From: a virus
DNA: 38,347 nucleotides
Virus record (IMG/VR): IMGVR_UViG_3300009447_001138
Coordinates: 1 to 38,347 of that record
Direction: 5' to 3' (one strand)
Every line of letters starts with the position of its first letter. Within the stretch, counting starts at the first letter, position 1. Shown piece by piece: positions 9,476 to 35,320 of this stretch. The notes below the pieces were generated by a model. That model did not search any database. It worked only from the letters and a program-made list of their open reading frames with translations, and was not told the DNA's origin. A program made the position numbers and the translations under genes.

Positions 9476-10222
9476 ATGTCGAGTGTAATACTTAGTTCAT
9501 ATTTCACAAAAAAAATACATCCAAACAGTGTCGATGATAAGCATGTTGTCGGCAGGATGGAAAACAACCATATACAAAAGGATTATTTTCCATATATTGA
9601 AAAATGGTATAATTCTATTTTAGATGAAAATCTAAATGCTGTTCTTTTTTATGATGGATTATCTGATGATTTTGTATCAAAATACGAGACAGATAAAATA
9701 AAATTTCAGAAGGTAGGATACTTTGAGTATTCAAATAACGACTATAGGTTTTTTTGTTTCAGAGACTATCTCGAAAAAAACAAATTTGACACAGTATTTC
9801 ACACTGACGCTTCTGATGTTGTTGTGGTGAAAAACCCAGAACCACTTGTTAAAGGTCTTAAAAAATATTCTTACTTTACATGTAAAGATAGTATACCTCT
9901 TAGTGAGTTTCCATATTTGAAAGTGCATCAAGAATTTAATTGGGAAGACAATATAAAATTCATACTAAACAATAATTCTTGGGACCTTATAAACATGGGG
10001 GTCGTTGGAGGAAGCTGTGAAGATATGCTTTTGTTTTATGAAAGTTTTTGTGATGTCAGAATAAGAATGGGCAACCCAGAATTCAATGCGGATATGTGGA
10101 TATTGCAATATTTACTGAGATCTATCTTTTCTGAGAAAGAATTTTTATCTGGTTATCCAGTATGCAGTGAATTTAAAAAATATGAAAACAACAGGGAAGA
10201 TGTCTACTTTATACACAAGTGA
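9476..10222 (+). CDS. GT-A-type glycosyltransferase candidate
   Basis: 248 residues. DTVFHTDASDVVVVKNP provides an acidic pair (DASD) at the end of a hydrophobic strand, where GT-A enzymes carry their metal-binding DxD. It is followed by INMGVVGGS and FNADMWILQYLL, which match the order of elements in proteins of the GT8/nucleotide-sugar transferase superfamily (N-x-G-hhxG; D..hL). The last residues, VYFIHK, fit the HxxG-like metal-ligand histidine near the C-terminus. It is the first gene of the glycan operon and starts flush with a strong -10. Specific family, sugar and acceptor are unknown. Confidence 0.6.
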   Translation: MSSVILSSYFTKKIHPNSVDDKHVVGRMENNHIQKDYFPYIEKWYNSILDENLNAVLFYDGLSDDFVSKYETDKIKFQKVGYFEYSNNDYRFFCFRDYLEKNKFDTVFHTDASDVVVVKNPEPLVKGLKKYSYFTCKDSIPLSEFPYLKVHQEFNWEDNIKFILNNNSWDLINMGVVGGSCEDMLLFYESFCDVRIRMGNPEFNADMWILQYLLRSIFSEKEFLSGYPVCSEFKKYENNREDVYFIHK

Positions 10223-11225
10223 AGATGCAGTAGATTACTGCATAGAAAGCGAATTCAAAAATAACACGATAGAATTCAACAAAAGTTTTCTAGAAAAACA
10301 TGAGAAAGCCAACCCTCTTGAATTAGTTTTTGAAATTAATACCGAAGATCCATATACAAATGAAAACGGAGACGTTTCATCTATTAGGGTTATAGATGCT
10401 TTGGGAGACAAAGGCAATGAATGGAAACTTCAAAGTTTTTATGGCTTGATCCAATCAGTTATCGACACTTATAAAATCAAATTAAACTGCAGGTTTGTAG
10501 CTTGCTTGAATGACGGCCTACCAATCACAGATAAATATACAAAGTTCTCTACATTCGGTAGACATAAGTCAAGTAATCATATTGGAATGCCAGACCCATT
10601 AGTATGCGGGGTCTTGACCTTTGGTTACAAAATAAGAACTTACCTAAATGATGACATTCCTTTTTCAGAAAAAAAAGATGGCATAATATTTAGAGGGTCA
10701 GACACAAGCAAACAAAGGGAAAACCTTTTGAATCAAAGATTAACTTTTTGCATTAATAATAAAGATTGTAACTATATAGATTCTAAAATAACATTTTTTG
10801 CTCATTACTCTGATGATATGTTAAGAAGCCACAATATAAACAAAAATGAAATATATTCAGAACATACAACTTCAGAAGATCAACTAAAATATAAATATAT
10901 AGCTTATATAAACGGGAACACCGTTTCTGGAGACAGGATGATGTGGCAACTTGCTTCTAACTCTTTACTAATACAGGTAAAGCCAAAAGAAAATGAAGAT
11001 GATTATATTTGGTACCATTCTTTTTTGAATAGTCTTGGAATTTTACCTACATTTCCAGAAGAGTCTTTTCTTGATGACTTTAAGGAGTTTGAGAAAAGAG
11101 AAGACATAGAGGCGTTAATAAAAAAACAGCAATATTTTGCTTCTATTATTCTTGACAGGGGATTCCAAATGCTTTATACTAAAGAAGCTTTAGTAAAATA
11201 CAACGAAATATATAATGCTAGTTAG
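10200..11225 (+). CDS. GT90/CAP10-like glycosyltransferase
   Basis: 341 residues from the ATG at 10200; in-frame ATGs at 10167 and 10182 would extend it but deepen the overlap with the previous gene (23 bases with the chosen start). The signature is GIIFRGSDTSKQRENLL (family W/F-RGS-x(2,3)-R) and, about 70 residues on, KYKYIAYINGNTVSGDRMMWQLASNSLLIQ, which is the characteristic K-Y-hhhxGxxxSxRhxxLhhhxSvhhh block of Pfam Glyco_transf_90 (CAP10, KDELC/POGLUT family). Members transfer xylose or glucose in eukaryotes and act in capsule or LPS assembly in bacteria. It overlaps the sulfotransferase by 11 bases, so the genes are co-expressed. Confidence 0.75.
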   Translation: MSTLYTSEDAVDYCIESEFKNNTIEFNKSFLEKHEKANPLELVFEINTEDPYTNENGDVSSIRVIDALGDKGNEWKLQSFYGLIQSVIDTYKIKLNCRFVACLNDGLPITDKYTKFSTFGRHKSSNHIGMPDPLVCGVLTFGYKIRTYLNDDIPFSEKKDGIIFRGSDTSKQRENLLNQRLTFCINNKDCNYIDSKITFFAHYSDDMLRSHNINKNEIYSEHTTSEDQLKYKYIAYINGNTVSGDRMMWQLASNSLLIQVKPKENEDDYIWYHSFLNSLGILPTFPEESFLDDFKEFEKREDIEALIKKQQYFASIILDRGFQMLYTKEALVKYNEIYNAS

Positions 11226-11811
11226 TCATAAGTTAAAATTCTTATATATACATATTCCTAAAAATTGGGGATCTTCTATATACAACTCCTTCAAGAAATT
11301 AGACCCAGATCTTATAGATACCCATATGCCAACTGAAGACGGGACTATAGATAAAACTCATATGCTGCCAATGCATCATCATAAGTTCGAGGTTATACAG
11401 TCAGCTATAGATAACGGTTATAAAGTTTTTTCTACAATCAGAAACCCAGAAGAAAGGTTTTATTCTTCTCTTGCTTATGCAGCTAGGCATTTAGGAAACC
11501 CAGAACACATATTCTTTTATTACTCTTACCTTAATTCAATAAGAAATAAATATTACATTCAAAGCTGCAGCTTTATACATGGATGTCCTCAAAACGAATT
11601 TATTTTTGATGAAGAAAAAAAAGTAACTGATAAAGATTTTTTATGTGATGATAATCTTTTTGATAATTTATCTGACTATTTGGATGTAAAAGTTGAATCT
11701 TCTCATCAAAATAAAGCTGTATCCAATAAAACATTGGGTATTAAATTTGAAGAGTTTAATGACATCTACGAAAAAGATATAGAAATTTATAACAAATTAC
11801 TTTCAAAATGA
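11215..11811 (+). CDS. carbohydrate sulfotransferase-like protein
   Basis: 198 residues with both PAPS-binding signatures of the sulfotransferase fold: near the N-terminus FLYIHIPKNWGSSIYNSF (5'-phosphosulfate loop, family IPKxGGTS; Lys16 kept, one Gly replaced by Trp), and STIRNPEERFYSSL (3'-phosphate motif RNPxxRxxS; Arg76, Arg81, Ser84). The spacing and length suit the Sulfotransfer_2-type carbohydrate sulfotransferases. It would move sulfate from PAPS to a sugar hydroxyl. No PAPS synthesis gene is visible here, so the donor must come from the host. Neighbours upstream and downstream are glycosyltransferases, so the acceptor is probably the glycan built by this operon. Confidence 0.75.
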   Translation: MLVSHKLKFLYIHIPKNWGSSIYNSFKKLDPDLIDTHMPTEDGTIDKTHMLPMHHHKFEVIQSAIDNGYKVFSTIRNPEERFYSSLAYAARHLGNPEHIFFYYSYLNSIRNKYYIQSCSFIHGCPQNEFIFDEEKKVTDKDFLCDDNLFDNLSDYLDVKVESSHQNKAVSNKTLGIKFEEFNDIYEKDIEIYNKLLSK

Positions 11812-12743
11812 AAATATGTTTTATAGCTCCAGGTGAAATAGAAATACCTCCAGATGGTTGGGGGGCTTTAGAGACTGTGCTTTGGAATCAATATGAATCA
11901 TTAAGAAAGCTTGGTCATGATGTTTATTTCATAAACGAAAAATCGACAAATCTCACGCATCAAAAAGTTCTTGAAATAAATCCAGATATAGTTCATTTAC
12001 ACTACGGTAAGCATTGGGAAATGATGCCTCACCTAAAGTGTAAAAAAATCGTTACCACTCATGATGGGAGTTTTATAAACAGCTTATCTTTTCATGAAAT
12101 GTTAATAAGACAGTTTTTTTATGACTGCAACTTTTTTTGCCTAACTACATTCGAACAAGATCTTCTTTTGAAAGTAGGAATATCTTCTAGTAAAATAAAT
12201 ATATTACCAAACGGAGTTTGTTTTTCTAAATTTAATAGGGTGGATAAAGAATATGTAGAGAATCCAGAATATAGCATTTGTTTAGGCAAGATAGATCCTA
12301 GAAAGAGGCAAGCTCAACTACAAAGCCAAACATCAATGGTTAAATATGTTGGCTCTTGTTTCGATAATGATTTTAATAAAGATGATCCAAATTATCTAGG
12401 AGCTTGGGAATCTAAGAAAGTAAAAGAAGATTTAACTCATTATGCTAATTTAATACTTCTTTCGTCTTCTGAGCTTCAACCTTTAGTGTGCTTAGAGGCA
12501 ATGTCTGCTGGACTTGGGCTTGTGGTCACAGAAGCATGTGTCCAAAATCTAGACACAACAAAAGATTTCATAACTGTTATTCCCGATGATAAGATAAATG
12601 ACATAATTTACATTAACGAGAAAATAGAAACAAACAAACACATTTCTTTAAACCAAAGAGATAGTATAGTTTCTTATGCAGAGTCTTTTGATTGGATGAA
12701 CATAGCGAGAAAATTTGAAAACCTAATTCACAAAATAAAATGA
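11808..12743 (+). CDS. GT4 glycosyltransferase
   Basis: 311 residues, GT-B fold. The N-lobe starts MKICFIAPGEIEIPPDGWGALE (family GGhExxhxxLAxxLxxxGHxV), followed by HDVYFINEK and DIVHLHYGKHWEM. The C-lobe has ILPNGVCFSKF (PNGVD element), YSICLGKIDPRKRQ (the GRlxxxKG element) and LILLSSSELQPLVCLEAMSAGLGLVVTEA, the E-x7-E donor-binding motif with Glu present in both places (SELQPLVCLEA). The inter-lobe segment is short, so the protein is slightly smaller than the usual 350-400. Four-base overlaps on both sides place it in the middle of the operon. Confidence 0.85.
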   Translation: MKICFIAPGEIEIPPDGWGALETVLWNQYESLRKLGHDVYFINEKSTNLTHQKVLEINPDIVHLHYGKHWEMMPHLKCKKIVTTHDGSFINSLSFHEMLIRQFFYDCNFFCLTTFEQDLLLKVGISSSKINILPNGVCFSKFNRVDKEYVENPEYSICLGKIDPRKRQAQLQSQTSMVKYVGSCFDNDFNKDDPNYLGAWESKKVKEDLTHYANLILLSSSELQPLVCLEAMSAGLGLVVTEACVQNLDTTKDFITVIPDDKINDIIYINEKIETNKHISLNQRDSIVSYAESFDWMNIARKFENLIHKIK

Positions 12744-13441
12744 AAAACGTAGCACTTTGTTATTCTGGTCAAATTAGAGACTTTAAAAAATGCTTCGAAT
12801 CACACGTAAGGCATATTATAGACGCAAACCCAGAATATAATTTTTATATATTTTTCCACTCTTGGTCTGATAAATCTTTAGAAGGGAAAAGCCACTTTGG
12901 AGAAAGAACAGACAGAGGTTTCTATAAAGCTGAAAACGTTTCTGACATTTTAGATGTTAATCCAGATTCTTTTCTTTTGGAGAAGCCTATATCTTTTAAA
13001 AGCGATTTAATTCCAGATCCAAAGTTCCCGCATCCTATTGAAAACACACTTTCTATGTTTTATTCAATTATGATGGCTAACAGCTTGAAGATTTTATTTT
13101 CTCAAGCAAGGAATGTTAATTTTGATTGGTCCGTAAGGCTAAGGACCGACTTGTTTTTTACAAAAGATTTTAAAATCTCTGATTACAACCCAGAGAACAT
13201 GTATATTAACGATCAATTTGTTCATACAGAATATGCAGTAAATGATCTTTTTAGCTTTTCAAACAGCAAAGACATGGATGTTTATAGCCAAACATTTGTC
13301 CGTATAGAATCTATGGTGGAAAATGGTTGTGCTGTTAATCCAGAATGTTTCCTTGGTTTCGGTTTACACTCTTCAGATTTGTTCAACATTAAAAAAACGC
13401 CACTACAAAACCACTACTACAAACTTTTTAGAGACTTATGA
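12740..13441 (+). CDS. putative glycosyltransferase-like protein (paralogue of 14804-15508)
   Basis: 233 residues beginning KNVALCYSGQIRDFKKCFESH and containing YIFFHSWSD, MFYSIMMANSLKILFSQ and WSVRLRTDLFFTKDF. The same layout (hhhhxGQxRxF...hhxHxW...QxxSIxxhxxLh...RxDxhh) is found in the product of 14804-15508, so the two genes are divergent paralogues. The R-x-D at the end of a predicted strand resembles a GT-A metal site. Such proteins are common in polysaccharide loci of bacteria and phages without a firm biochemical assignment. Overlaps of 4 bases on both sides put it in the glycan operon. Confidence 0.55.
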   Translation: MKNVALCYSGQIRDFKKCFESHVRHIIDANPEYNFYIFFHSWSDKSLEGKSHFGERTDRGFYKAENVSDILDVNPDSFLLEKPISFKSDLIPDPKFPHPIENTLSMFYSIMMANSLKILFSQARNVNFDWSVRLRTDLFFTKDFKISDYNPENMYINDQFVHTEYAVNDLFSFSNSKDMDVYSQTFVRIESMVENGCAVNPECFLGFGLHSSDLFNIKKTPLQNHYYKLFRDL

Positions 13442-14802
13442 TAAAATTAATAATATTTGATTTAGATGGCGTTTTAGTTGACGCTAAAGAAATTCATTAC
13501 GACGCCTTGAACGAGTCCTTGGCCGAAGTCGGATTAGAATTTGTAATATCTGAACAAGAACATTTGAGTATTTATGATGGTCTTAAAACAACATCTAAGT
13601 TAGATATTCTATCAGAGAAAAAAGGGTTACCAGAAAAACTACACAAACAAATTTGGAATAGCAAACAAAGAATAACATCTGAAAAGATACAAGAATTAGA
13701 ACATAATCAAAACTTAATCTTAATGTTTAAGAGTTTAAGAGCTAAAGGCTTTAAGATTGCTTGTTGTTCTAACTCTATAAGAAGGTCTGTTATACTAATG
13801 CTTTCTAAAGTAGGAATAATAGAGTATTTTGACCTTATAATCTCTAACGAAGATGTAAAAAATTCAAAACCCCATCCTCAAATGTATTGGGACGCTATGT
13901 CAATACTTGGAAAAGATCCAGAAGAAACATTGATAGTCGAAGATTCTCCACACGGATTACTAGCTGCTCAAAGATCTGGCGCTAAAGTAGTTAGAGTTAA
14001 AAACGCTAAAGATTTGACCTTAGAAAAAATAGAAAGAAACCTTTTGAAAACAAAAAATATAAATACAAACACAAAGTGGCAAGATAGGAAATTGAATGTT
14101 CTTATTCCCATGGCTGGTGCAGGTAGTCGTTTTGAAAAAGCTGGCTATACATTTCCAAAACCTTTGATTGAGGTAGATGGTAAAGCAATGATACAAGTTG
14201 TTGTAGATAACTTAAACTTCGAAAGCAAACATTCTTTTATAGTTCAAAAAAGTCACAGAGAAAAATACAACCTTGACTCAATGCTTGGTATGATTGCAGA
14301 AAAACCTAACATCGTAGAGGTTGAAGGAATCACAGAAGGTGCTGCTTGTACTACTCTGCTGGCTAAAGATATTATAAACAATGACAACCCTTTAATCATA
14401 GCAAACTCAGATCAATTTGCTGAGTGGGATACAAGTGAGTTTATGTATAAAATGCAAGAACAAGATCTTGATGCTGGTATACTTACCTTCAGGTCGACGC
14501 ATCCTAAGTGGTCTTTTGCTAAAATTGATGAAAACGGTTTTGTTACAGAGGTTGCAGAAAAAAACCCGATATCAGACATAGCCACAGTTGGCATCTATTA
14601 TTGGAAGAAAGGATCTGACTACGTTAAGTATGCCGAGCAAATGATTTCAAGAAACAGAAGATTTAATAATGAATTTTACGTATGCCCTGTTTTTAACGAA
14701 GCTATAGAAGATGGAAAGAAAATTAAAACTTTTGATATAAATAAAATGTGGGGTCTAGGTACTCCAGAAGATCTAGATATCTTTTTAAAAAATCATAAAT
14801 AA
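13438..14802 (+). CDS. HAD phosphatase-sugar nucleotidyltransferase fusion
   Basis: 454 residues with two enzyme domains. Residues 1-about 190 are a beta-phosphoglucomutase-type HAD hydrolase with all four motifs: D8-L-D10-G-V-L-V-D, Ser111 (CCSNS), Lys144 (NSKPHP) and E168-D169 (EDSPHG). Residues about 219-454 are a nucleotidyltransferase: LIPMAGAGSRFEKAGYTFPKPL carries the GxGxR...K nucleotide/phosphate loop (Arg231, Lys241), IIANSDQF the metal aspartate, and MWGLGTPEDLDIFL the typical C-terminus. A plausible pairing is removal or transfer of one phosphate followed by activation of the sugar-1-phosphate to an NDP-sugar, but the order and substrate are inferred. It lies between two members of a putative transferase family. 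Confidence 0.85.
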   Translation: MIKLIIFDLDGVLVDAKEIHYDALNESLAEVGLEFVISEQEHLSIYDGLKTTSKLDILSEKKGLPEKLHKQIWNSKQRITSEKIQELEHNQNLILMFKSLRAKGFKIACCSNSIRRSVILMLSKVGIIEYFDLIISNEDVKNSKPHPQMYWDAMSILGKDPEETLIVEDSPHGLLAAQRSGAKVVRVKNAKDLTLEKIERNLLKTKNINTNTKWQDRKLNVLIPMAGAGSRFEKAGYTFPKPLIEVDGKAMIQVVVDNLNFESKHSFIVQKSHREKYNLDSMLGMIAEKPNIVEVEGITEGAACTTLLAKDIINNDNPLIIANSDQFAEWDTSEFMYKMQEQDLDAGILTFRSTHPKWSFAKIDENGFVTEVAEKNPISDIATVGIYYWKKGSDYVKYAEQMISRNRRFNNEFYVCPVFNEAIEDGKKIKTFDINKMWGLGTPEDLDIFLKNHK

Positions 14803-14803
14803 A

Positions 14804-15508
14804 GTGAAAGCTGCTTTATTATTATTTGGCCAACCAAGGTTTCTTGATGACCCTATGGTTGTGGATTCTTTTAATTATCTAAAATCTATTTTTGATTTAG
14901 ATGTTTTTGGTCATACATGGTGGTCAGAACACGAAGATGAATATTCTTTTTCTGATTGGACTAATATGGAAAAATGTCCAGTTAACAAAAACGCTCTAAA
15001 TATAATAAATGAAATATATAAACCCATAGAAATATCTTACGATTCCTCTGTTCAATTTAAAACAGATAAAAATATAAACAGGTTTATTTTAGATAAATTT
15101 CCAGACGATAAATTTTGGGACAAAAAACATTCAAACAATATACAGTCTCAGCTTTTTTCAATACAAAAAGTTTCTAGACTTTTCGAAAAGTATAAAGAAG
15201 ATTATGATATTGTTATATTGGATAGGTATGACACCTATTTAAAACATGAGCAAGATATATCAAATATAAACAAAGATTACTTTTACCTTTCTGATATACA
15301 TCCTAGGTTTCCAGATATGGTTTTAATGTATGGTACTAAATATTTAGAATGGTCGTCTAATGTTTATGATGATTTTTTTGACAAGAATGTTTATGAAAAT
15401 ATTTGGAAACCAAGATGTGAAGCTTTCAAAGCTGCATCTTTCATGAAAAGATTTGATATTAATCAAGCTCGCTCTTTAAAAATAGACTCAATAGCAATAA
15501 GAAAATGA
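14804..15508 (+). CDS. putative glycosyltransferase-like protein (paralogue of 12740-13441)
   Basis: 234 residues from a GTG one base after the previous stop. It opens KAALLLFGQPRFLDD and contains DLDVFGHTWWSEH, QLFSIQKVSRLFEKY and YDIVILDRYDTYLKH, which line up in order with the corresponding elements of the 12740-13441 product (GQIR, FFHSW, SIMMANSLKILF, VRLRTDLFF). Overall identity is low, so duplication was old or the two were acquired separately. The final 4 bases overlap the pyruvyltransferase gene. A glycan-related role is inferred from context and the R-x-D strand; no reaction can be assigned. Confidence 0.55.
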   Translation: MKAALLLFGQPRFLDDPMVVDSFNYLKSIFDLDVFGHTWWSEHEDEYSFSDWTNMEKCPVNKNALNIINEIYKPIEISYDSSVQFKTDKNINRFILDKFPDDKFWDKKHSNNIQSQLFSIQKVSRLFEKYKEDYDIVILDRYDTYLKHEQDISNINKDYFYLSDIHPRFPDMVLMYGTKYLEWSSNVYDDFFDKNVYENIWKPRCEAFKAASFMKRFDINQARSLKIDSIAIRK

Positions 15509-16452
15509 ACATAGCAGTTATAACACCTCCAAGAGAGTTTAATTTAGGTAATGGTATCTTTGCAGATGGAGGGATACATCTAGTGAATAAGTTTTTTAAA
15601 AAACATAATATATATATTATAGAGTATTTTCAGTCATGCCAGTCGCATAGATCTGAAAAAACAAAACCCTTCACAAGTGGAACTTTAAAATGGATTGATC
15701 AAAAAGCGGATCTCATTATCTTATTGGGAGGTTGTTGCTTAAGCGAAGTTATGTTTGATGGGTTTTTCAAACCAATGTTTGACATTAAGAAACCTATACT
15801 TGGATTGGGTTTGGGATGCACAACTTATGACGACAAAGAAAAAAGCATAGCGGAAGAGGTTTTCAAAAATTGCGAAGCCATAATAACTAGAGACAAATAC
15901 CTTTATGATTTCATTTCTGATTCTAAAAAATCATTAAACGGTCTTGATGGAGGTTATTTTTGTTCTGATTTTTATAAATGCACAGAAGAAGATAAAAAAT
16001 ACGCTGTTTCTAATATAGATTCTCAAGGTAAACTTTGCTTAGACAAACCAAAAGAATTCTCATGTGGGAATGCAATGGAAGAAGCCCAGAAACTTTCTTT
16101 TTTAAGTGAAGATGTATATGTTGTTTCTAATAATTCAAATTTACTACTTTTGCCTGATCATCCAAAAGTTTTACAAATTACAACGAGCCAACAGTTATGG
16201 AGTCTTTACAAGAATGCATCTATAGTTTCTACTACAAGAGCACATACAGCCATATGTTGCTTGACAGAAGGGACAAGCCTCAACTACTACGGTCATATGG
16301 ACAAGAGAGCGTTAGGCATGATTGAACAGTGCGATATAGATCTTTCTAATAATACTGTAGATCTAAAAGAATCTAAAATAAAAATAGAAAAAACAAAAAA
16401 CAAATATTTAAAAGAATTAGAAATATTTTTTAATGAAAATAATATCACATAG
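15505..16452 (+). CDS. polysaccharide pyruvyltransferase-like protein
   Basis: 315 residues. The layout fits the PS_pyruv_trans family (CsaB, WcaK): an N-terminal Rossmann-like half with ADLIILLGGCCLSE and KPILGLGLGC, then CEAIITRDKYLYDFI (family hxxRDxxSxxxL), and a C-terminal half with ASIVSTTRAHTAICCLTEGTSLNYYG, equivalent to the VVSxRLHxxIxAxxxGxPxI block. These enzymes add a pyruvate ketal from PEP to a sugar, giving a negative charge. Coupled with the sulfotransferase in the same operon, this suggests an acidic glycan product. The 3' end overlaps the GDPD-like gene by 20 bases. Confidence 0.7.
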   Translation: MNIAVITPPREFNLGNGIFADGGIHLVNKFFKKHNIYIIEYFQSCQSHRSEKTKPFTSGTLKWIDQKADLIILLGGCCLSEVMFDGFFKPMFDIKKPILGLGLGCTTYDDKEKSIAEEVFKNCEAIITRDKYLYDFISDSKKSLNGLDGGYFCSDFYKCTEEDKKYAVSNIDSQGKLCLDKPKEFSCGNAMEEAQKLSFLSEDVYVVSNNSNLLLLPDHPKVLQITTSQQLWSLYKNASIVSTTRAHTAICCLTEGTSLNYYGHMDKRALGMIEQCDIDLSNNTVDLKESKIKIEKTKNKYLKELEIFFNENNIT

Positions 16453-16846
16453 AGGCAACATTTCAGGGCCAAATAAAGAAACGGAAAACAATCCAGATCA
16501 AATATTGAAGTGCCTAGAACTTGGTTTTGATTGCGAGATAGATTTATGGCATAAAGATTCCTGCTTTTTTCTTGGTCATGATTGCCCTCAATACAAAATA
16601 GATTTTTCTTTTCTATACAATAAAGGTTTATGGATTCATTGTAAGAATCTAGACGCTTTGATTAACTGTCCTCCAAGCTGCAATTACTTTTGGCACGAAA
16701 ACGACGACTACACATTAACATCAAAAAAAATTATTTGGACTTTTCCTGGTAAAAGAGTTGAAAAAAGATGTGTTGTTGTAGATAATGATATTAACTGGAA
16801 GGAAAAAAAATACAAATGCTTTGGCGTTTGTACAGACTACGTTTAA
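16433..16846 (+). CDS. small GDPD-like phosphodiesterase
   Basis: 137 residues, about half of a typical glycerophosphodiester phosphodiesterase. The key residues of the family are still visible: IISHRG with the catalytic His-Arg, the E-x-D metal pair in FDCEIDLWH, and the second His in FLGHDCPQY. KGLWIHCKNLDAL and YFWHENDDYTLTS follow. The early end means the late barrel strands are shortened, as in a small GDPD-like family seen in polysaccharide loci. Likely substrates are glycerophosphate-type diesters or polyol-phosphate groups of glycans; this is inferred. The gene overlaps its upstream neighbour by 20 bases and ends immediately before gmd. Confidence 0.65.
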   Translation: MKIISHRGNISGPNKETENNPDQILKCLELGFDCEIDLWHKDSCFFLGHDCPQYKIDFSFLYNKGLWIHCKNLDALINCPPSCNYFWHENDDYTLTSKKIIWTFPGKRVEKRCVVVDNDINWKEKKYKCFGVCTDYV

Positions 16847-17878
16847 ATGAAAAAAGTAATTATCACAGGTGTAACAGGACAAGACGGAAGCTTTATGGCT
16901 GACTACTTGTTGGAGAATACAGACATCGATATCATCGCAGGAGTGCGCCGACTTAGTGTTAAAAATCACGAAAACATAAAACACTTGTCTGACAACTCAA
17001 GATTTAGACTCATCGACCTTGACATAACTGACCAATCAAATGTCAATCGTGTTATCGAAGAAGAGAAGCCAGATTACTTTATTAATTTTGCAGCAAATTC
17101 ATTTGTTGGTGTTAGTTGGGATATGCCAGAGAACCACATGAATACAAATTGCATGTCTGTATTGTACCAGCTTGAGGCTATCCGCAAATACTGCCCAGAT
17201 TGCCGATACTACAATGCTGGCTCGTCTGAAGAATTCGGCGACGTAGTTACCGCCCCTCAGGACGAGACGCATCCATTGCGCCCCAGAAGCCCGTATGGAG
17301 CATCCAAAGCCTCCGCAAGACACTTGGTTAAAGTTTGGAGGGACTCTTACAATCTTTATGCAATACAAGGTTGGTTATTTAATCACGAAGGAACAAGGAG
17401 AGGTGAAGAGTTTCTTACCCGAAAAGTCACTAAAGGTGTGGCTGAGATATTTTTGAAAAACAGCATCGGAGATAGTTTCAAACCTATTGAGCTTGGAAAC
17501 CTTGAAGCAAAAAGAGACTGGTCTGATGCGGAGGATTTTGTAGATGGTATTTGGAAGATGCTTAATCAAAAAGAGCCAAAGGAATATGTTCTAGCTTCTG
17601 GGGAGACCCATACAATCAGAGATTTTGTGGAAACTGCTTTTTCTTATGCTGGTTACGGTGCTGAAAAATGCAAATGGGTCGGTGAAGGTCTAGACGAGAA
17701 ATATATCCACGGTGATCAATTACTTGTTGAGATTAATCCTAGATATTACAGACCTGCCGAAGTAGAGCTTTTATTAGGGGACCCTTCCAGAGCAGAAAAA
17801 GAGCTTGGCTGGATCAGAAAAACAAATTTCCAAGGGCTTGTTAAAAAGATGGTTGACACTGATATAAATATCGGATAA
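16847..17878 (+). CDS. gmd: GDP-mannose 4,6-dehydratase
   Basis: 343 residues, the full length of Gmd. The NADP-binding Rossmann loop is TGVTGQDG (residues 7-14). The SDR catalytic set is Ser126/127 with Glu128 (AGSSEEFG) and Tyr150-x3-Lys154 (PYGASK). Family marks include NFAANSFVGVSWDMPE, NHEGTRRGEEFLTRKVT and ELGNLEAKRDWSDAEDFV. It converts GDP-mannose to GDP-4-keto-6-deoxymannose, the precursor of GDP-fucose, GDP-rhamnose or GDP-perosamine. No second-step reductase or aminotransferase lies in the window, so the final sugar depends on host enzymes or genes elsewhere. Its base composition is less AT-rich than its neighbours, with more CGC/GCC codons around 17180-17330, hinting at later acquisition. 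Confidence 0.92.
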   Translation: MKKVIITGVTGQDGSFMADYLLENTDIDIIAGVRRLSVKNHENIKHLSDNSRFRLIDLDITDQSNVNRVIEEEKPDYFINFAANSFVGVSWDMPENHMNTNCMSVLYQLEAIRKYCPDCRYYNAGSSEEFGDVVTAPQDETHPLRPRSPYGASKASARHLVKVWRDSYNLYAIQGWLFNHEGTRRGEEFLTRKVTKGVAEIFLKNSIGDSFKPIELGNLEAKRDWSDAEDFVDGIWKMLNQKEPKEYVLASGETHTIRDFVETAFSYAGYGAEKCKWVGEGLDEKYIHGDQLLVEINPRYYRPAEVELLLGDPSRAEKELGWIRKTNFQGLVKKMVDTDINIG

Positions 17879-23698: not shown

Positions 23699-24442
23699 AT
23701 GATCAAGCCGATATTTACTTCTTGCTACTCTACAGGTAAAAGTATACTAACTTTAAACAACTCTGAATCGGATGAGGGTCCAGACTCAATAATTTCAATC
23801 TGTAAAGATGAAGGTTTAAAAGATCTAGTTCTTGTTGAAGACAACCTAACAAGCTTCATGAAAGCTTTTCATGTCTGCAAAGAAAACGACATTAGATTGA
23901 CTTATGGATTAAAGATTAATCTTTGCAATAACTCTGAAAGCGAAAATAAAGATGACTCCCATAAGGCTGTAATTTTTGCTTTAGACGACGAAGGTTGTAA
24001 GCTTTTAAACAAGATTTATTCTTTTGCTTTCACTGAGTGTGATGGCAAAATTAATTATGATAACCTAATAAGGTTCTGGAATAACAAACACCTTTCTTTT
24101 GTTGTTCCTTTTTATGGTAGTTTCATACATGAAAATAACTTCTTTCTAAAAAACTGCATACCTTATTTAGAAGGTTTAAACCCTAGGTTTTGGATAGAAA
24201 GAAATAACCTCCCTTTTGATTCTCTTCTAGAAGACAAGGTTAAATCTTTTGTCGACGGCAAATATCCTATAAGCTTAGTCAAAACAATCAAATACAAAAA
24301 CAAAGAGGATGTAGAAGCATTGCAAACTTATAAAGTTTTATGTAATAGATCTTTTGGTAGGCAAGCAACATTATCTAATCCAAACTTAAGTCATTTTGGT
24401 AGTGATGAGTTTTGCTGGGAGTCTTACAAAGAACAAGTTTAA
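23699..24442 (+). CDS. DNA polymerase III alpha, PHP domain only
   Basis: 247 residues equivalent to the N-terminal PHP domain of DnaE. Matches in order: FTSCYSTGKSILT at the position of the HxHxxYS(L)LDG strand, ISICKDEGLKDLVLVEDN (family ...AxxxGhxAhAhTDH.N), AFHVCKENDIRLTYGLKINL (GIKPIhGxE), KAVIFALDDEGCKLLNKIYSFAF (hhhLAxNxxGYxNLhxLhS), and KTIKYKNKEDVEALQTYKVLCNRSFG (hATNDVHYhxxEDxxAxxxLhCIxxG), then SDEFCWESYKEQ (EhYhKSxEEM). The PHP metal histidines are lost, so the domain is probably catalytically dead, as in E. coli DnaE. It ends where DnaE would continue into the palm; that part is encoded at 25074-27617, beyond an exonuclease gene. It has its own strong promoter. Confidence 0.8.
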   Translation: MIKPIFTSCYSTGKSILTLNNSESDEGPDSIISICKDEGLKDLVLVEDNLTSFMKAFHVCKENDIRLTYGLKINLCNNSESENKDDSHKAVIFALDDEGCKLLNKIYSFAFTECDGKINYDNLIRFWNNKHLSFVVPFYGSFIHENNFFLKNCIPYLEGLNPRFWIERNNLPFDSLLEDKVKSFVDGKYPISLVKTIKYKNKEDVEALQTYKVLCNRSFGRQATLSNPNLSHFGSDEFCWESYKEQV

Positions 24443-24444
24443 TT

Positions 24445-25077
24445 ATGAATGAATCACTTCTTAGGTTTAAAAGAAACCAAAAATATATCATATTTGATAC
24501 AGAAACTGAAGGCTTGAATCTAATCAAGTCTAAGCCTTGGCAAGCAGCTTGGATTGTTGTCGAGGGAGACAGAGTTATTAAAAAATACGATAAACTTATA
24601 CATTGGGACGACTTAAACGTTTCTCCAGACGCTGCAAGAATAACTGGTTTTGATAAAGAGTATTACAAGAACAATTCGGAACCAGCAGATAAAGTTTGGA
24701 GCGAGTTCTCAAAATACCTTTATGATGATGACTATTTGATCGTAGGGCAAAACCTTCTTGCTTTTGATGTTTATATGGTTGATGTATGGAGAAATCTTAT
24801 TGGGGAAAAACTAGATCAATCTTACATCAAGAGAATCATTGACACTAAAGCTATAGCTACTGCCATAGCTAAAAACGCCCCAGTGGATAAAGATAATTTT
24901 ATTTACTGGCAATATAAATGGCTAAACTTTAGGGAGAGAGGTTTAAAAACTTCTCAGTTGACTCTGCTTAAAAAATATGATATTACTTTTGACCAGAAAC
25001 GTTTACATGATGCTCTTTATGACATCGAAATGAACTTCCAAATATTCAGAAGACAAATTTTAGAAATTGAAATATGA
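24445..25077 (+). CDS. DnaQ-like DEDDh 3'-5' proofreading exonuclease
   Basis: 210 residues from the ATG at 24445, 2 bases after the PHP gene stop; an in-frame TTG at 24412 is less likely. ExoI is YIIFDTETEGLN (Asp18, Glu20), ExoII GQNLLAFDVYMV (Asp), and ExoIII HDALYDIEMNFQIF (His and Asp), the complete DEDDh set. VSPDAARITGFDKEYY is the usual DnaQ strand-helix between ExoI and ExoII. It is the epsilon-type proofreader for the phage polymerase, and its position between the PHP and polymerase genes recalls the PolC order, where the exonuclease is inserted in the PHP domain. It overlaps the polymerase gene by 4 bases. Confidence 0.9.
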   Translation: MNESLLRFKRNQKYIIFDTETEGLNLIKSKPWQAAWIVVEGDRVIKKYDKLIHWDDLNVSPDAARITGFDKEYYKNNSEPADKVWSEFSKYLYDDDYLIVGQNLLAFDVYMVDVWRNLIGEKLDQSYIKRIIDTKAIATAIAKNAPVDKDNFIYWQYKWLNFRERGLKTSQLTLLKKYDITFDQKRLHDALYDIEMNFQIFRRQILEIEI

Positions 25078-27617
25078 ACTATCAAACGCCATTCCCAGTA
25101 GGAGTTAAGCTCCCAGAAATCGAAGTTCCTGATAAAACTTTAAAAGATTTAGATCTAGACTCTAACGCTTCTAGTTTTGATATTCTAAAACAGCTTTGCA
25201 GAAAGGGTTTGAGAGAAAGAGGCATAACTAAAAAAGAAAACAGATCTGAGTATTACGAAAGAACAGAAACTGAACTGGAAATTTTAGAGGAGCTTGGTTT
25301 TGTCGATTATATACTTTTGAATTGGGACATACTTGACTTTTGTAAATCTAAAGATATCCCAACTGGTGCTGGCAGAGGCAGTGCTGCTGGAAGCTTGGTT
25401 CTTTACCTGCTTGGGGTCACCAATATTGACCCTATTAAATACGAGCTTTTCTTTGAGCGTTTTGTTTCTAAGAGTAGGGCTAAAAAAATAGAGCATAACG
25501 GAGTAACTTATTTAGACGGTTCTCTTTTGGCTGATGTGGACAACGATATATCCTATGATAGAAGAGTTGAAGTTATTGAATATATTGAAAAAAAATACAA
25601 AGGAAAAACATCTAAGATTTTAACCTTAAACACTTTAAGTTCTAAGCTTTGTGTTAAAGAATGTGGCAAAATCGTTGATGGTTTATCTGAGATAGATGTT
25701 AATCAAATTAGTGACACTATACCAAAACACTTTGGGAAGGTAGCAAAGCTTTCGCAAGCTTACGAAGAAAGTGAAAGTTTTAGAGTTTATGCTGACAAGT
25801 ACAAGAAGTCATTTAAAATATCAAAAAAACTAGAAGGTTTAATAAAGAATACTGGAGTCCATCCTTCTGGAATATCGATTAGCTATTATAATCAGACAGA
25901 CATAATGCCTCTTCAAAAAACAAATGAAGGAGCTTTAGTGTCTGGTTATGATATGGATGACGTAGCAAGCCTTAGTGTCAAGTTCGATATACTTGGACTG
26001 AGGACGCTTTCAGTGGTTCATGACGTATGTAACCAAATTGGCATCAAAGCCTGTGACATCGACCCTAGCGACGAAAGCATCTATGCAGCGTTAGCTTGCC
26101 TCCAACAACCTAAAGGATTGTTTCAGATCGAAGCGGAAGTAAATTTCAAGGTTTGTAAGCAAGTCGCGCCCAGAAACCTTGAGCAATTGTCTGCTGTTGT
26201 CGCTATAGCTCGTCCAGGGGCTTTAGATTTTAAAGATAGTTATGCTGAATATGTAAGAACTGGAGAGTTCAATTGTGTGCATGAATTTTTTGATGATATA
26301 CTTAGTTATACAGGAGGCATTCCTCTTTACCAAGAGCAGTTAATGAAGATGGCTGTTAAAGTTGGCTTTAGTCTTGATGAGTCAGAGCAACTTAGAAGAA
26401 TAGTAGGAAAGAAAAAGGTTGAGGACATGCCAGCATGGAAAGCTAAAATTGAAGAAAAAATAAAAAGTAACAATTTAGATCCAGTAATAGGAGAAGTCTT
26501 ATGGAAGGTTGCTGAAGACTCAGCTAACTATTCGTTTAATAAGTCTCATAGTATATCGTATGCATATTTAGCTGCCCTTACAGTTTATCTTAAGTTCAAT
26601 CACCCACAAGAATTCTTCTTAAGTTTGTTGAAAATGGCGAGATTCGAACCAAATTCTCATGATGAGATTACAAGTATTTCTCAAGAGCTTTCTTTTTTTG
26701 ACATAAAGCTACTTCCTCCAGATTTAAATCTGTCAGGTTTTGATTTCAAAATTGAAGGCAAAAACATCAGATATGGATTAAATTCAATTAAAGGTGTTTC
26801 AGATAAAGTTATGGAGTCGCTGGTTGAGTTCAGAGAAGGGTCTTTTAAAAACAAGTATGACGTATTTATTACGGCAAAAGATTGCGGTGTTAATATAGGG
26901 ACTATGTCTGCGTTTGCCCAAGCTGGTCTTCTTGATTCTTTTGTTGATAAAGACAGATGTAGATTAGTTCTTGAGGCTCAAACATTCAATATATTAACTG
27001 ACAGAGAAAAAAGAAATGTAATAGAACTAGGACCTAAATTCAATTATGATATCCTAAATACAATTCATGATTGTAGATCTGAAACCACACCTGCTGATGA
27101 TGGTAGAGTTCTTTTTTCAGACAAAAGATTTAATACCTTTAAGAAAAAGTATGATCCATATAAAAGCATTTATGAACAAAACACAAGCCACTTAAAGTTT
27201 GCTAATTGGTTTTTTGAGACCAAACTACTTGGATATAGTTATTCTTATAACATAAGAGAGATATTTAGCAGTGGGGATGAAGAGTCTTTTCAGACATCTG
27301 AGGAGATTAGGCTTTCTCAAGCAAGAAGAACGGTTAAATTTGTGGGTATTATTGCAGACATAAGTAGGAGAACAAGTAGAAATGGCAACAAGTATGCTAG
27401 GCTTGATATAAATGATGAACTTGGAACTGTTTCTGGATTATTTATGGATTCAGACAGACAAGAAAGGTTGACAGACTACCTAAATTGTGGTAATAAGTTG
27501 CCGAAGAAAGGTGACGTTGTTATAGTTGTTGGTGATACCGCTGACGATTTGATATTCATCAACACCCTTCGTCCATTAAGAGAAAAAATTTATATGAAAC
27601 TTTCAGAACTAAAATGA
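25074..27617 (+). CDS. dnaE: DNA polymerase III alpha, polymerase (C-family) part
   Basis: 847 residues starting just where the PHP domain ends in DnaE (LPEIEVPDK, FDILKQLCRKGLRERG). Palm: PTGAGRGSAAGSLVLY and LLADVDNDISYDRRVEVIEY, the D-x-D catalytic pair, with SVKFDILGLRTLSVV supplying the third Asp (E. coli D555 region). Fingers and tandem helix-hairpin-helix: LYQEQLMKMAV, LRRIVGKKK, NYSFNKSHSISYAYLA, RYGLNSIKGVSDKVM. An OB fold is near the C-terminus (VKFVGIIADISRRTSRNGNKYARLDINDELGTVSG). An insertion of about 15 residues sits before the catalytic D-x-D. Together with the 247-aa PHP protein the total is about 1,094 residues, close to standard DnaE. It should work with the adjacent exonuclease; no clamp gene is in the window. 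Confidence 0.93.
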   Translation: MNYQTPFPVGVKLPEIEVPDKTLKDLDLDSNASSFDILKQLCRKGLRERGITKKENRSEYYERTETELEILEELGFVDYILLNWDILDFCKSKDIPTGAGRGSAAGSLVLYLLGVTNIDPIKYELFFERFVSKSRAKKIEHNGVTYLDGSLLADVDNDISYDRRVEVIEYIEKKYKGKTSKILTLNTLSSKLCVKECGKIVDGLSEIDVNQISDTIPKHFGKVAKLSQAYEESESFRVYADKYKKSFKISKKLEGLIKNTGVHPSGISISYYNQTDIMPLQKTNEGALVSGYDMDDVASLSVKFDILGLRTLSVVHDVCNQIGIKACDIDPSDESIYAALACLQQPKGLFQIEAEVNFKVCKQVAPRNLEQLSAVVAIARPGALDFKDSYAEYVRTGEFNCVHEFFDDILSYTGGIPLYQEQLMKMAVKVGFSLDESEQLRRIVGKKKVEDMPAWKAKIEEKIKSNNLDPVIGEVLWKVAEDSANYSFNKSHSISYAYLAALTVYLKFNHPQEFFLSLLKMARFEPNSHDEITSISQELSFFDIKLLPPDLNLSGFDFKIEGKNIRYGLNSIKGVSDKVMESLVEFREGSFKNKYDVFITAKDCGVNIGTMSAFAQAGLLDSFVDKDRCRLVLEAQTFNILTDREKRNVIELGPKFNYDILNTIHDCRSETTPADDGRVLFSDKRFNTFKKKYDPYKSIYEQNTSHLKFANWFFETKLLGYSYSYNIREIFSSGDEESFQTSEEIRLSQARRTVKFVGIIADISRRTSRNGNKYARLDINDELGTVSGLFMDSDRQERLTDYLNCGNKLPKKGDVVIVVGDTADDLIFINTLRPLREKIYMKLSELK

Positions 27618-31800: not shown

Positions 31801-32268
31801 ATGATTAACTTTTATAAACCTAACTCACAAAGTACTGGTTGTGCTTTTGGTTTCCGTATGGGAACTCAAGGTAAAAACTATGAGCCTTGTGTATATATGA
31901 CGGCTGTAAAACAGTATTCTTGGGACTCTAATAAGAAAACTGGATCCTTTTCTGGTAATCACAAGAATCCAGAAAAATCACTATCTGTTAAATTTAACGA
32001 AACAGAAATTAGTGGTTTTATATATGCCGTCGAAAAGTATGAAAAATTTAGTGCTTATCATACTTTTGATAGCAACTCAACATCTATTCTGTTCAGCCCT
32101 TATAAGAAAAAAAGTGGAGAAGATGCTTTTTCTTTTACAGTAACAAGAAACTCCTCAAATAAATTTGGGATGGGGGTGGAAATGTCCGAAGCTTATTTAA
32201 TTTGTCAGTTTTTCAAACATGCATTAGATAAATTGTTTACTCACAGAATAGAAGCTAATAAAAAATGA
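31801..32268 (+). CDS. possible whirly/PC4-like single-stranded nucleic-acid-binding protein
   Basis: 155 residues with a strand-rich first two thirds (FGFRMGTQGKNYEPCVYMTAV, KSLSVKFNETEISGFIYAV, STSILFSPYKKK, AFSFTVTRN) followed by one long helix (MSEAYLICQFFKHALDKLF). This beta-sheet-then-helix order, and the GSFSGNHKNPEKSLSVKFNETEI segment, resemble the whirly/MRP-type ssDNA/RNA-binding fold. I cannot confirm this without a structure search, and no catalytic motif is visible. It begins a new transcription unit with a palindromic promoter and overlaps the glycosyltransferase gene by 4 bases. Confidence 0.5.
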   Translation: MINFYKPNSQSTGCAFGFRMGTQGKNYEPCVYMTAVKQYSWDSNKKTGSFSGNHKNPEKSLSVKFNETEISGFIYAVEKYEKFSAYHTFDSNSTSILFSPYKKKSGEDAFSFTVTRNSSNKFGMGVEMSEAYLICQFFKHALDKLFTHRIEANKK

Positions 32269-34121
32269 GAAAAAAAAGAGTATTAATTCATTCTAATTTT
32301 TGCAAAGCTTTTACAGGTTTTGGTAAAAACCAAAAAAATATTTTAAAGTACCTTTATAAAACTGGCAAATACGAGGTTTTCGAAGCCGCGAATATGAAGT
32401 CGGTTGATGATAAAACTTTAAACTCTTTACCTTGGGATTGTTATGGGACTATACCTGAAAACTACCAAGTTTTAAATGAACAAGAAAAAAGAGATGCTGG
32501 CTACGGATCTCTTGAGATAGACAATATTGTTAATAAAGTAAGGCCAGATATATACATAGGAATTGAGGATATTTGGGGGTTTACAAATTACCACCATAAA
32601 CCTTGGTGGAATAAGATAAAATGCATGGTTTGGACTACTCTTGATAGTCTTCCTATTTTACCGCAAGCAGTTGAATATGCTCCTAAAATAAAAGACTACT
32701 ACGTTTGGTCTAGCTTTGCTGAAAAAGCATTTAAAGAGTTGGGTTATGATCATGTTAAAACATTAAGAGGGTCTCTTGATACTGATCACTTTTTTAAATT
32801 AGAAGACCAAAAAAGAATTAACTTAAGGAGGCATCAAAACATAAAAGATGAAGATTTTGTGATAGGTTTTGTTTTTAGAAACCAATTAAGAAAATCTGTA
32901 CCTAATTTGCTTGATGGATTCAAAAGATTTAAAGAAAAAAATACAAGTGCCAAGCTCCTTTTGCATACTCATTGGCAAGAGGGTTGGGATATATTGAGGT
33001 TGATTGAAGAAAAAAACATTAAAAAATCAGATATTTTAACTACATACTTTTGTCACTCATGTAACTCTTTTGAGATAAAACCTTTTTCTGGTGAAAATCA
33101 AAAATGCAGATATTGTAATAGCGAAACTCTTAATACCACAAACGTAAAGTATGGTGTATCAGAAGAGCAGTTGAATGAGGTATATAACTTAATGGATGTT
33201 TACTGTCACCCTTTTACAAGTGGTGGCCAAGAAATACCTGTTCAAGAAGCTAAATTGACTGAGCTTATAACCTTGGTCACAGATTATTCGTGCGGCGAAG
33301 ATAGCTGCACAGAAGAGAGCGGAGGCTTGCCTCTTAGTTGGCATGAATATAGAGAACCAGGCACTCAGTTTATAAAAGCTTCTACAGACGCAGAATCTAT
33401 TGAACAAATGCTTCAATCAGTTTTTGATATGACTAAGGAGGAAAAAGATTCTCAGGGAAAAAAATCAAGAGAATGGGTTGTCGAAAATTTCTCTACTGAA
33501 GTTATTGGTAAAAAACTAGAAAAAATCATTGATGATGCTGAATACTTAGATGAAAAAGTTGATTTAAAAAACAATTATTACGATGAGTTTTACAACATGC
33601 CTCAAAATTTAACTGACGAGGAACTTGTTATAGATTTATATAAGAATGTTTTAAATGACGATGTTGATTTCCGCACGGAAGGTTACAAAACTTGGGTTAG
33701 CAAATTAAAAAACAGAGAGATAAGTCAGCTCCAAATTTATCATCATTTTATACATGTAGCTAAAAAACAAAATTCAAAAGAAGAAACTTCTTTTGAGGAT
33801 GCGTTATCGAAAGAAGATAAAGGTAAAAGAGTCGCTGTTGTAATTCCAGAGTCTGGAACAGATCTTATTTTTATAAACTCCCTTTTGAGAAACTTAAAAA
33901 AGAAACATAAGAATCATAATATATATATTTTTACAAAACCACAGTTCTTCGAATATATAGAAGATAACCCTAATGTTTTCAAATGTTTGCCTTACTCCCC
34001 TTCGCTTGATAACCCGATCAGCATGGAAGGTTTTGGGAAAAATGAGGGTTTCTTCGAGGCCGCTTATTACCCAGCAACGACCACTCAAAAAGTACCCTGC
34101 TACATCCATAACGGAAAATAA
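32265..34121 (+). CDS. GT4 with zinc-ribbon insert, DUF4214-like linker and N-terminal half of a GT9 domain
   Basis: 618 residues in three parts. 1-about 425: a GT4-type GT-B enzyme (VLIHSNFCKAFTGFGKNQ, GFVFRNQLRKSVPNLLDGFKRF, VYCHPFTSGGQEIPVQEAK as donor site). Between its lobes' strands a zinc ribbon is inserted, CHSC at 263-266 and CRYC at 281-284. About 448-500: DEELVIDLYKNVLN, GYKTWVSKLKN and YHHFIHVAKK match the DUF4214 pattern (LYxxhLxRxxDxxGxxxWxxxL...F). From 521: RVAVVIPESGTDLIFINSLLRNLKKK and IYIFTKPQFFEYI begin a GT9 heptosyltransferase-like N-lobe that is cut off by TAA at 34119. The missing C-lobe is in the next gene, in another frame. Sugar specificity unknown. Confidence 0.75.
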   Translation: MRKKRVLIHSNFCKAFTGFGKNQKNILKYLYKTGKYEVFEAANMKSVDDKTLNSLPWDCYGTIPENYQVLNEQEKRDAGYGSLEIDNIVNKVRPDIYIGIEDIWGFTNYHHKPWWNKIKCMVWTTLDSLPILPQAVEYAPKIKDYYVWSSFAEKAFKELGYDHVKTLRGSLDTDHFFKLEDQKRINLRRHQNIKDEDFVIGFVFRNQLRKSVPNLLDGFKRFKEKNTSAKLLLHTHWQEGWDILRLIEEKNIKKSDILTTYFCHSCNSFEIKPFSGENQKCRYCNSETLNTTNVKYGVSEEQLNEVYNLMDVYCHPFTSGGQEIPVQEAKLTELITLVTDYSCGEDSCTEESGGLPLSWHEYREPGTQFIKASTDAESIEQMLQSVFDMTKEEKDSQGKKSREWVVENFSTEVIGKKLEKIIDDAEYLDEKVDLKNNYYDEFYNMPQNLTDEELVIDLYKNVLNDDVDFRTEGYKTWVSKLKNREISQLQIYHHFIHVAKKQNSKEETSFEDALSKEDKGKRVAVVIPESGTDLIFINSLLRNLKKKHKNHNIYIFTKPQFFEYIEDNPNVFKCLPYSPSLDNPISMEGFGKNEGFFEAAYYPATTTQKVPCYIHNGK

Positions 34122-34123
34122 AA

Positions 34124-35320
34124 ATGTCACACCTATTAACAGAATATTCTAAAAACTTAGAGGTGAAACCTTCTAACGTAATTGTAAATAAGCACTTTTT
34201 TCCAGTTGTTCCTAAAGACTACATAGTAATATATAACGAGCAAGATATCGACGCTAAATGCTATAATTATTACGGTCTTTTTTGCGATTTGATAAAACAA
34301 GAACTTGATAAGTTTAACATTAAAATACTAATCATAGGTTCGGAAAAAAATGCAACCGATAGGTTTGACTACCTTTATCCAAATTTAAGTTTTAGACATA
34401 ATGCTTATATTGTTTCAAAAGCAAAAGCTTTAATTTCTGTAGATAACGCGATTACTCAGTATGCGAGTAGCCAAGGCGTCCCAGTAGTCAGCCTTTATGG
34501 TAACATATATCCATCTATAACCACACCTTACTGGTCTAAACCTCACCAAAAAATAGATCTAAAACCAGACTGGGACAAAAAACCATGTATGTCTACTTTT
34601 GACCCTGATGGATCTATAGATAGAATAAAAGCTGAAGAAGTTTCCGAATCTTTGTTACTTATTTTAAGTTCTAATTATAAAAAATATAAAGGAAAACTTA
34701 TAACAAAACCCAACTTCAAAACAAAACTTATAAACAAAAAAAAATCATATTGTATAGACGTTATACCAACTCAATATGTAAATCTTCCCATTTTCGAAAA
34801 CAACATCTTAAATATAAGGTTGGATAAGGATTTAGGTAACATGGCTTCGCTGCAAAATTATTGTAACAACCATGAATGCGTGTTATTTCTTAAGGATTCA
34901 TTGCTTCAAATAGATTCAATTAATAGTTTTTCAAAAAACATAAAATCTATAAATGTAATAACAACAGTAAAGCCCCAGAGTATCCCCAAGAAATATTTTT
35001 CTATACTTAAGTCACTGGGTATTGATTTTTGTTTTTTAGTTTCGAATAAAGATATATTGGATGATATGAGGTTTGAATACTTCGATAGCGAAGTCCAGTA
35101 TTACAACCCTCCAAAAGACAAACCAAAAAACATAGATACAGATAATAAGTTTTTATCTTTCAAACTTGTGGTTGAAGGAGAAAAAATATACCAATCCACA
35201 TATCATTGGAAAAAAAACCTTGACTCTGAAGATGATATAGTCGATAATCCTGATTACTGGGAAGAACTAGATTACTTTTATATTTATGAACAAAAAAGAG
35301 GACAAAAACAAAGCAGTTAA
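34124..35320 (+). CDS. C-terminal half of a GT9 heptosyltransferase-like domain plus unknown tail
   Basis: 398 residues. The first half is a GT9 C-lobe: YIVIYNEQDIDA, IKILIIGSEKNA, then NAYIVSKAKALISVDNAITQYASSQGVPVVSLYGN and PYWSKPHQ, matching the GT9 element hhxxAxhhIxxDSxxxHhAxAxGxPhVxLFG...P. The N-lobe is at the end of the preceding gene, 2 bases away and one frame off; reading through would give HNGK-IK-MSHLLTEYSKNL without a gap. From about residue 200 a second segment begins (SYCIDVIPTQYVNLPIF, VLFLKDSLLQID) that may be another transferase-like domain; I do not recognise it. Either a separate subunit, a -1 frameshift product or a recent frameshift. Confidence 0.65.
   Translation: MSHLLTEYSKNLEVKPSNVIVNKHFFPVVPKDYIVIYNEQDIDAKCYNYYGLFCDLIKQELDKFNIKILIIGSEKNATDRFDYLYPNLSFRHNAYIVSKAKALISVDNAITQYASSQGVPVVSLYGNIYPSITTPYWSKPHQKIDLKPDWDKKPCMSTFDPDGSIDRIKAEEVSESLLLILSSNYKKYKGKLITKPNFKTKLINKKKSYCIDVIPTQYVNLPIFENNILNIRLDKDLGNMASLQNYCNNHECVLFLKDSLLQIDSINSFSKNIKSINVITTVKPQSIPKKYFSILKSLGIDFCFLVSNKDILDDMRFEYFDSEVQYYNPPKDKPKNIDTDNKFLSFKLVVEGEKIYQSTYHWKKNLDSEDDIVDNPDYWEELDYFYIYEQKRGQKQSS

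Follow-up and report, generated by a model that had tools for sequence, protein, structure and literature searches.

In a large group of uncultured phages, two adjacent and probably translationally linked genes most likely encode a single GT-B glycosyltransferase of GT9 type in two halves. The genes lie on the plus strand of the window, which is the whole 38,347-nucleotide stretch of IMG/VR record IMGVR_UViG_3300009447_001138 that we analyzed. Across their relatives, the two genes are conserved, the split point is fixed, the frame relation varies, and both halves are under purifying selection; in the window, the halves are complementary.

The junction in the window

ORF1 (32265–34121, 618 residues) ends with the TAA stop at 34119–34121, and ORF2 (34124–35320, 398 residues) starts with the ATG at 34124 in the -1 frame relative to ORF1. 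At the junction (34115–34126, AAAA-TAA-AA-ATG), the stop of ORF1 is followed by two bases and the start of ORF2. These positions and the -1 frame had been given in a preliminary description of the sequence, and they agree with both the window sequence and its list of open reading frames. The description also proposed that a slip by -1 on AAAA would be translated as K-I-K-M and run on without loss of residues into a fused protein of about 1,018 residues; we reproduced the read-through, and the length adds up (618 + 2 + 398 = 1018). Its junction string, GGA AAA TAA AAA ATG, needs correction, as the actual string is GGA AAA TAA AA ATG with one A fewer. Tight gene meetings are common among the neighbors in the window, for example at 11808/11811 and 27614/27617 in the list of open reading frames.

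Domain composition of ORF1 and ORF2

ORF1 is mainly a GT4-like glycosyltransferase (residues ca. 15–424). This region matches phrog_2170 (8.2e-20) and, slightly under the cut-off, Pfam Glycos_transf_1 (8.8e-6). It is followed by a DUF4214 domain (residues 440–496; Pfam, 5.9e-5) and then by a Rossmann-type tail (residues ca. 520–618, 33825–34118), which profile, Foldseek, and VIA-align comparisons tentatively identify as the start of a GT9 domain. The profile of the tail matches residues 8–65 of 3tov weakly (E 0.037), with GT9 chains ranking first. The AlphaFold model of the tail, built separately from ORF2, has a mean pLDDT of 83.6, and Foldseek places GT9 chains on top of its matches (best 3tov, 2.4e-3). 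Its VIA alignment to residues 1–121 of 1psw is modest (Z 6.1, rmsd 3.6, 89 aligned), and the tail also aligns to residues 1–132 of 2h1h (chain B) and 2–125 of 3tov. The Z score of 6.1 is tied with those of unrelated Rossmann folds, though GT9 enzymes hold the first ranks. None of 19 tails was matched by the Pfam GT9 models. Asp533 of ORF1 is invariant in all 75 aligned tails and sits at the place of what we take to be the GT9 ‘GD’ motif. No source on the catalytic base of WaaC was found in the open-licence literature.

ORF2 consists of the last N-lobe helix and the C-lobe of GT9 (residues 1–186), followed by a confidently folded C-terminal part (residues ca. 190–390). It matches Pfam Glyco_transf_9 (PF01075) above the cut-off (5.7e-7), covering positions 97–222 of the 247 in the model, and 19 of 20 ORF2 heads from relatives match Pfam GT9 at E≤0.1 (best 7.2e-9). 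The AlphaFold model of ORF2 has a mean pLDDT of 93.7. Residues 2–186 align to residues 129–348 of 1psw with a Z of 17.8 (rmsd 3.0, 171 aligned), and ORF2 also aligns to residues 134–345 of 3tov and 139–322 of 2h1h (chain A). Met1, His3, and Tyr8 are conserved in 76/76 sequences and Asp107 in 73/76. When the ORF2 model was compared with the structures of viral proteins, the matches listed included single-chain GT9-like proteins and other glycosyltransferases. The region at residues ca. 190–390 (window positions ca. 34690–35290) is modeled as alternating strands and helices, in blocks mostly above 90 pLDDT. Among the matches listed for the whole-ORF2 structure comparison, the part beyond residue 190 is without a counterpart, which has no bearing on its novelty.

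By these comparisons, the two genes each hold a portion of a single GT-B domain, the one completing the other, with a modest match for the N-terminal half. In the models, the two halves would tile one GT9 enzyme without overlap, and the cut is predicted to lie just before the last helix of the N-lobe. The preliminary description had divided the domain into an N-lobe and a C-lobe. The presence of GT9 halves in both ORFs is supported, for ORF1 by modest matches, but the cut falls inside the N-lobe, between residues 121 and 129 of 1psw.

Conservation of the two-gene arrangement

Relatives were collected by searches of IMG/VR and one scan of genome contigs, giving 343 sources with the window included. 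Both halves are present in 341 of them; of the two exceptions, locus L014 ends right after the match and the match in L047 begins at base 67. Grouping by exact junction DNA yielded 171 distinct junctions, near-identical contigs being counted separately whenever they differ by even one base in the stretch that was compared. As the viral scans gave the best 80 of 186, 198, 122, and 516 relatives, these junctions are part of the family and more distant members lie outside.

No fused junction was found among the 171, and the break is at the same point in every one of them, a recurrence beyond chance. As a control, the same pipeline was applied to a boundary inside ORF1, which was fused in 165/165 cases (6/171 were untestable). 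In contrast to the break point, the frame is variable: ORF2 is in the -1 frame relative to ORF1 in 122 junctions, in the +1 frame in 44, and in frame 0 behind an in-frame stop in five. A FastTree tree of 167 gene pairs, from which four of the 171 were left out for having fewer than 300 joined residues, requires at least 17 changes of the frame relation. The spacing is likewise diverse, comprising a 10-nt overlap (34 junctions), ATGA (33), TAAnATG (31), TAATG (28), the two-base spacer of the window type (14), a 13-nt overlap (10), and other forms with fewer junctions each. These are forms common between adjacent genes.

Among pairs limited to equal ORF2 length, dN/dS has a median of 0.041 over 70 pairs of ORF1 tails and of 0.069 over 82 pairs of ORF2, values which indicate that purifying selection acts on both halves. 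Greedy thinning of 110 complete ORF2 sequences left 36 below 60% mutual identity. The genome-contig scan, a single scan with one pattern that leaves room for fused relatives in bacteria, found two loci, both split, in metagenome-assembled bins of Cytophagaceae and Verrucomicrobiales. A tblastn search with the two proteins as queries gave no match among 50,697 phage records, hence no cultured relative. The matches of the window’s polymerase are all below 60% identity.

The co-occurrence of the halves bears on an improbable alternative, in which the ORF1 tail would serve as a small accessory of Rossmann type, ORF2 would be a protein in its own right, and the two genes would not rebuild a GT9 enzyme. 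It would fit the weak structural score of the N-terminal half, tied with other Rossmann folds, and the lack of a Pfam GT9 match for the tail, and joint assembly of the halves is our inference. Against it, the halves cover adjoining stretches of the same GT9 entries without overlap, they co-occur in nearly all sources, and Asp533 of ORF1 and Asp107 of ORF2 are conserved to the extent given above. We prefer the reading of two genes for the halves of one GT9 enzyme.

Frameshifting, base error, and decay

The preliminary description had considered a programmed -1 frameshift, a real break, or a base error for the junction. In the first case, ribosomes would shift on A-AAA at the ORF1 stop and produce the fused protein of 1,018 residues. 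The geometry of the window does allow such a slip, and AAAA stands right before the ORF1 stop in 25/171 junctions. A -1 slip there would enter ORF2 in eight of the 171, the window’s included, which could yield some fused protein, but would miss it in the other 17 of the 25. A general mechanism of this kind is at odds with the 44 junctions in the +1 frame, the five in frame 0 with an in-frame stop, and the 12 that carry an extra gene between the halves. The ATG of ORF2 is retained in all 171. The two-codon slippery heptamer is absent from the junction string of the window, and none of six folded junctions has downstream structure beyond chance in pseudoknot-free folding (z from -0.82 to +0.96; window +0.30). 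Hence, we found neither a conserved shift direction with a slippery site nor a downstream stimulatory structure. The preliminary description had named separate, non-contiguous genes with clear starts of their own in relatives as evidence against frameshifting, and such genes exist. In favor of frameshifting, recoding and coupling have both been reported for the same gene cluster in a few bacterial families (PMC3711429). Taken together, we regard programmed frameshifting as very improbable.

A base error in the assembly has a negligible probability: the junction does adjoin a short A run, the usual site of such errors, but an independent contig, IMGVR_UViG_3300025621_001322, is 99.96% identical to the window over 12,083 bases (five mismatches, no gaps) and carries the same junction, with the mismatches elsewhere, and none of the relatives’ junctions is fused. 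The junctions of the relatives and the independent contig exclude frameshifting and base error as general explanations. Decay was also rejected, given the absence of fused forms among the 171 junctions, the drift of frame on the tree, and the low dN/dS in both halves. Of the three earlier proposals, the real break is left, and it represents a conserved arrangement of two genes rather than damage.

A gene between the halves

A whole gene of 128–140 residues separates the halves in 12 of the 171 junctions, and no slip can join halves that have a whole gene between them. Eleven of the 12 intervening genes are alike and DUF6165-like, and all four that were scanned match DUF6165 (2.7e-7 to 8.7e-10); the twelfth, in locus L321, is a cupin. 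The presence of an intervening gene changed at least three times on the tree of 167 pairs. A profile of ten inserts run against the 343 sources found the gene only between the halves, save five hits with negative domain scores. In L268 (5911–6312) and ten similar loci, the DUF6165 gene lies exactly between the GT9 halves, and its product is a candidate third partner. We found no report on DUF6165 in the open-licence literature.

Start of ORF2 and likely host

An ATG is found at the aligned ORF2 start in 171/171 junctions, at model position 1 in 166 and three bases further on in five. The leader of ORF2 in the window (34109–34123, plus strand) is A-rich (10 of 15 bases), has A at -3 and -6, and lacks a Shine-Dalgarno motif. 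A at -3 occurs in 69% of the 171 ORF2 starts vs. 31% of 630 internal Met codons. Shine-Dalgarno-like motifs are present at 0/112 ORF2 starts and 1/23 gene starts of the window. An A at -3 without a Shine-Dalgarno motif corresponds to the initiation style described for Flavobacterium, of Bacteroidota type (PMC6847099). This start context makes a Bacteroidota host likely for the phage, as judged from the sequences. Against this reading, A is not strongly enriched at -12/-13 of the ORF2 starts (47% and 30%) and is found at -3 in only 9/21 other starts of the window, and the bins of Cytophagaceae and Verrucomicrobiales do not settle the host.

Proposed two-subunit enzyme

We propose that ORF1 is translated into a GT4-like enzyme bearing the first part of GT9 at its C-terminus. 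After terminating at the TAA, ribosomes would begin translation of ORF2 at its own ATG two bases downstream, by stop/start coupling or reinitiation. The product of ORF2 would supply the remainder of GT9 together with the C-terminal part. The two chains probably come together in trans to form one GT9 active site, by analogy to Alg14/Alg13 or EpsE/EpsF, and the resulting enzyme is predicted to be an active glycosyltransferase. As to a more specific picture, we see even chances that it is a phage-specific, obligately two-subunit GT9 with an origin separate from Alg14/Alg13, in which a GT4-like protein with half a GT9 is paired with a completing subunit, the DUF6165 protein may be a third subunit in some phages, and keeping the parts separate allows control through subunit assembly or brings two transfer steps together by docking.

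Alg14/Alg13 and EpsE/EpsF are split GT-B enzymes of MurG type, which resemble the phage pair in that the N-terminal and C-terminal parts come from two genes (PMC4973528). The phage pair differs from them in belonging to the GT9 family, in being encoded by phage genes, in having the N-terminal half on a GT4-like enzyme, and in being cut inside the N-lobe. Fused Alg14-Alg13 forms are reported, whereas the 171 distinct junctions include no fused relative of the phage pair. As the best matches are GT9 enzymes, descent from the Alg14/Alg13 split is not likely, and these matches suggest that the phage split is independent. The GT9 heptosyltransferases WaaF (1psw), WaaC (2h1h), 3tov, and TibC (4rb4) resemble both phage halves in fold and profile, modestly so for the N-terminal half; they are single chains, whereas the phage enzyme would be made of two. 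A conserved change of reading frame has been attributed to a downstream start and not to recoding (PMC3711429). The phage junction is like those coupled transitions in changing frame via a downstream start, and is unlike them in that one domain is cut and a gene sometimes lies in between. No report of a split GT9, or of a split glycosyltransferase in a phage, was found in the open-licence literature.

With its conserved position inside a single catalytic domain, its freely drifting frame, and the occasional gene in between, the cut provides a clean natural example of a split enzyme. It shows clearly why annotation as a frameshift, pseudogene, or error would be wrong for junctions of this kind. 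Should the halves assemble, they would bring a GT9 member to the known group of divided GT-B enzymes, and the constant break point would mark a site, already tried by nature, at which enzymes of the GT9 family can be divided.

Genome neighborhood

The window contains a sugar cluster at 10167–17878, which encodes a GT90-like protein, a sulfotransferase-like protein, a GT4, a HAD and nucleotidyltransferase protein, a pyruvyl transferase, and a GDP-mannose 4,6-dehydratase. The cluster suits a glycan-building role for ORF1 and ORF2, which may act within the sugar cluster of the phage. At 23699–27617, the functions of DNA polymerase III alpha are spread over three adjacent genes, namely a PHP domain (just under the Pfam cut-off), an RNase_T exonuclease, and an 847-residue polymerase core without PHP. 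With this trio, the same genome has another multi-domain enzyme whose parts are distributed over separate genes. A BspA-type leucine-rich repeat protein of 706 residues is encoded at 2–2122 and is open at the window edge.
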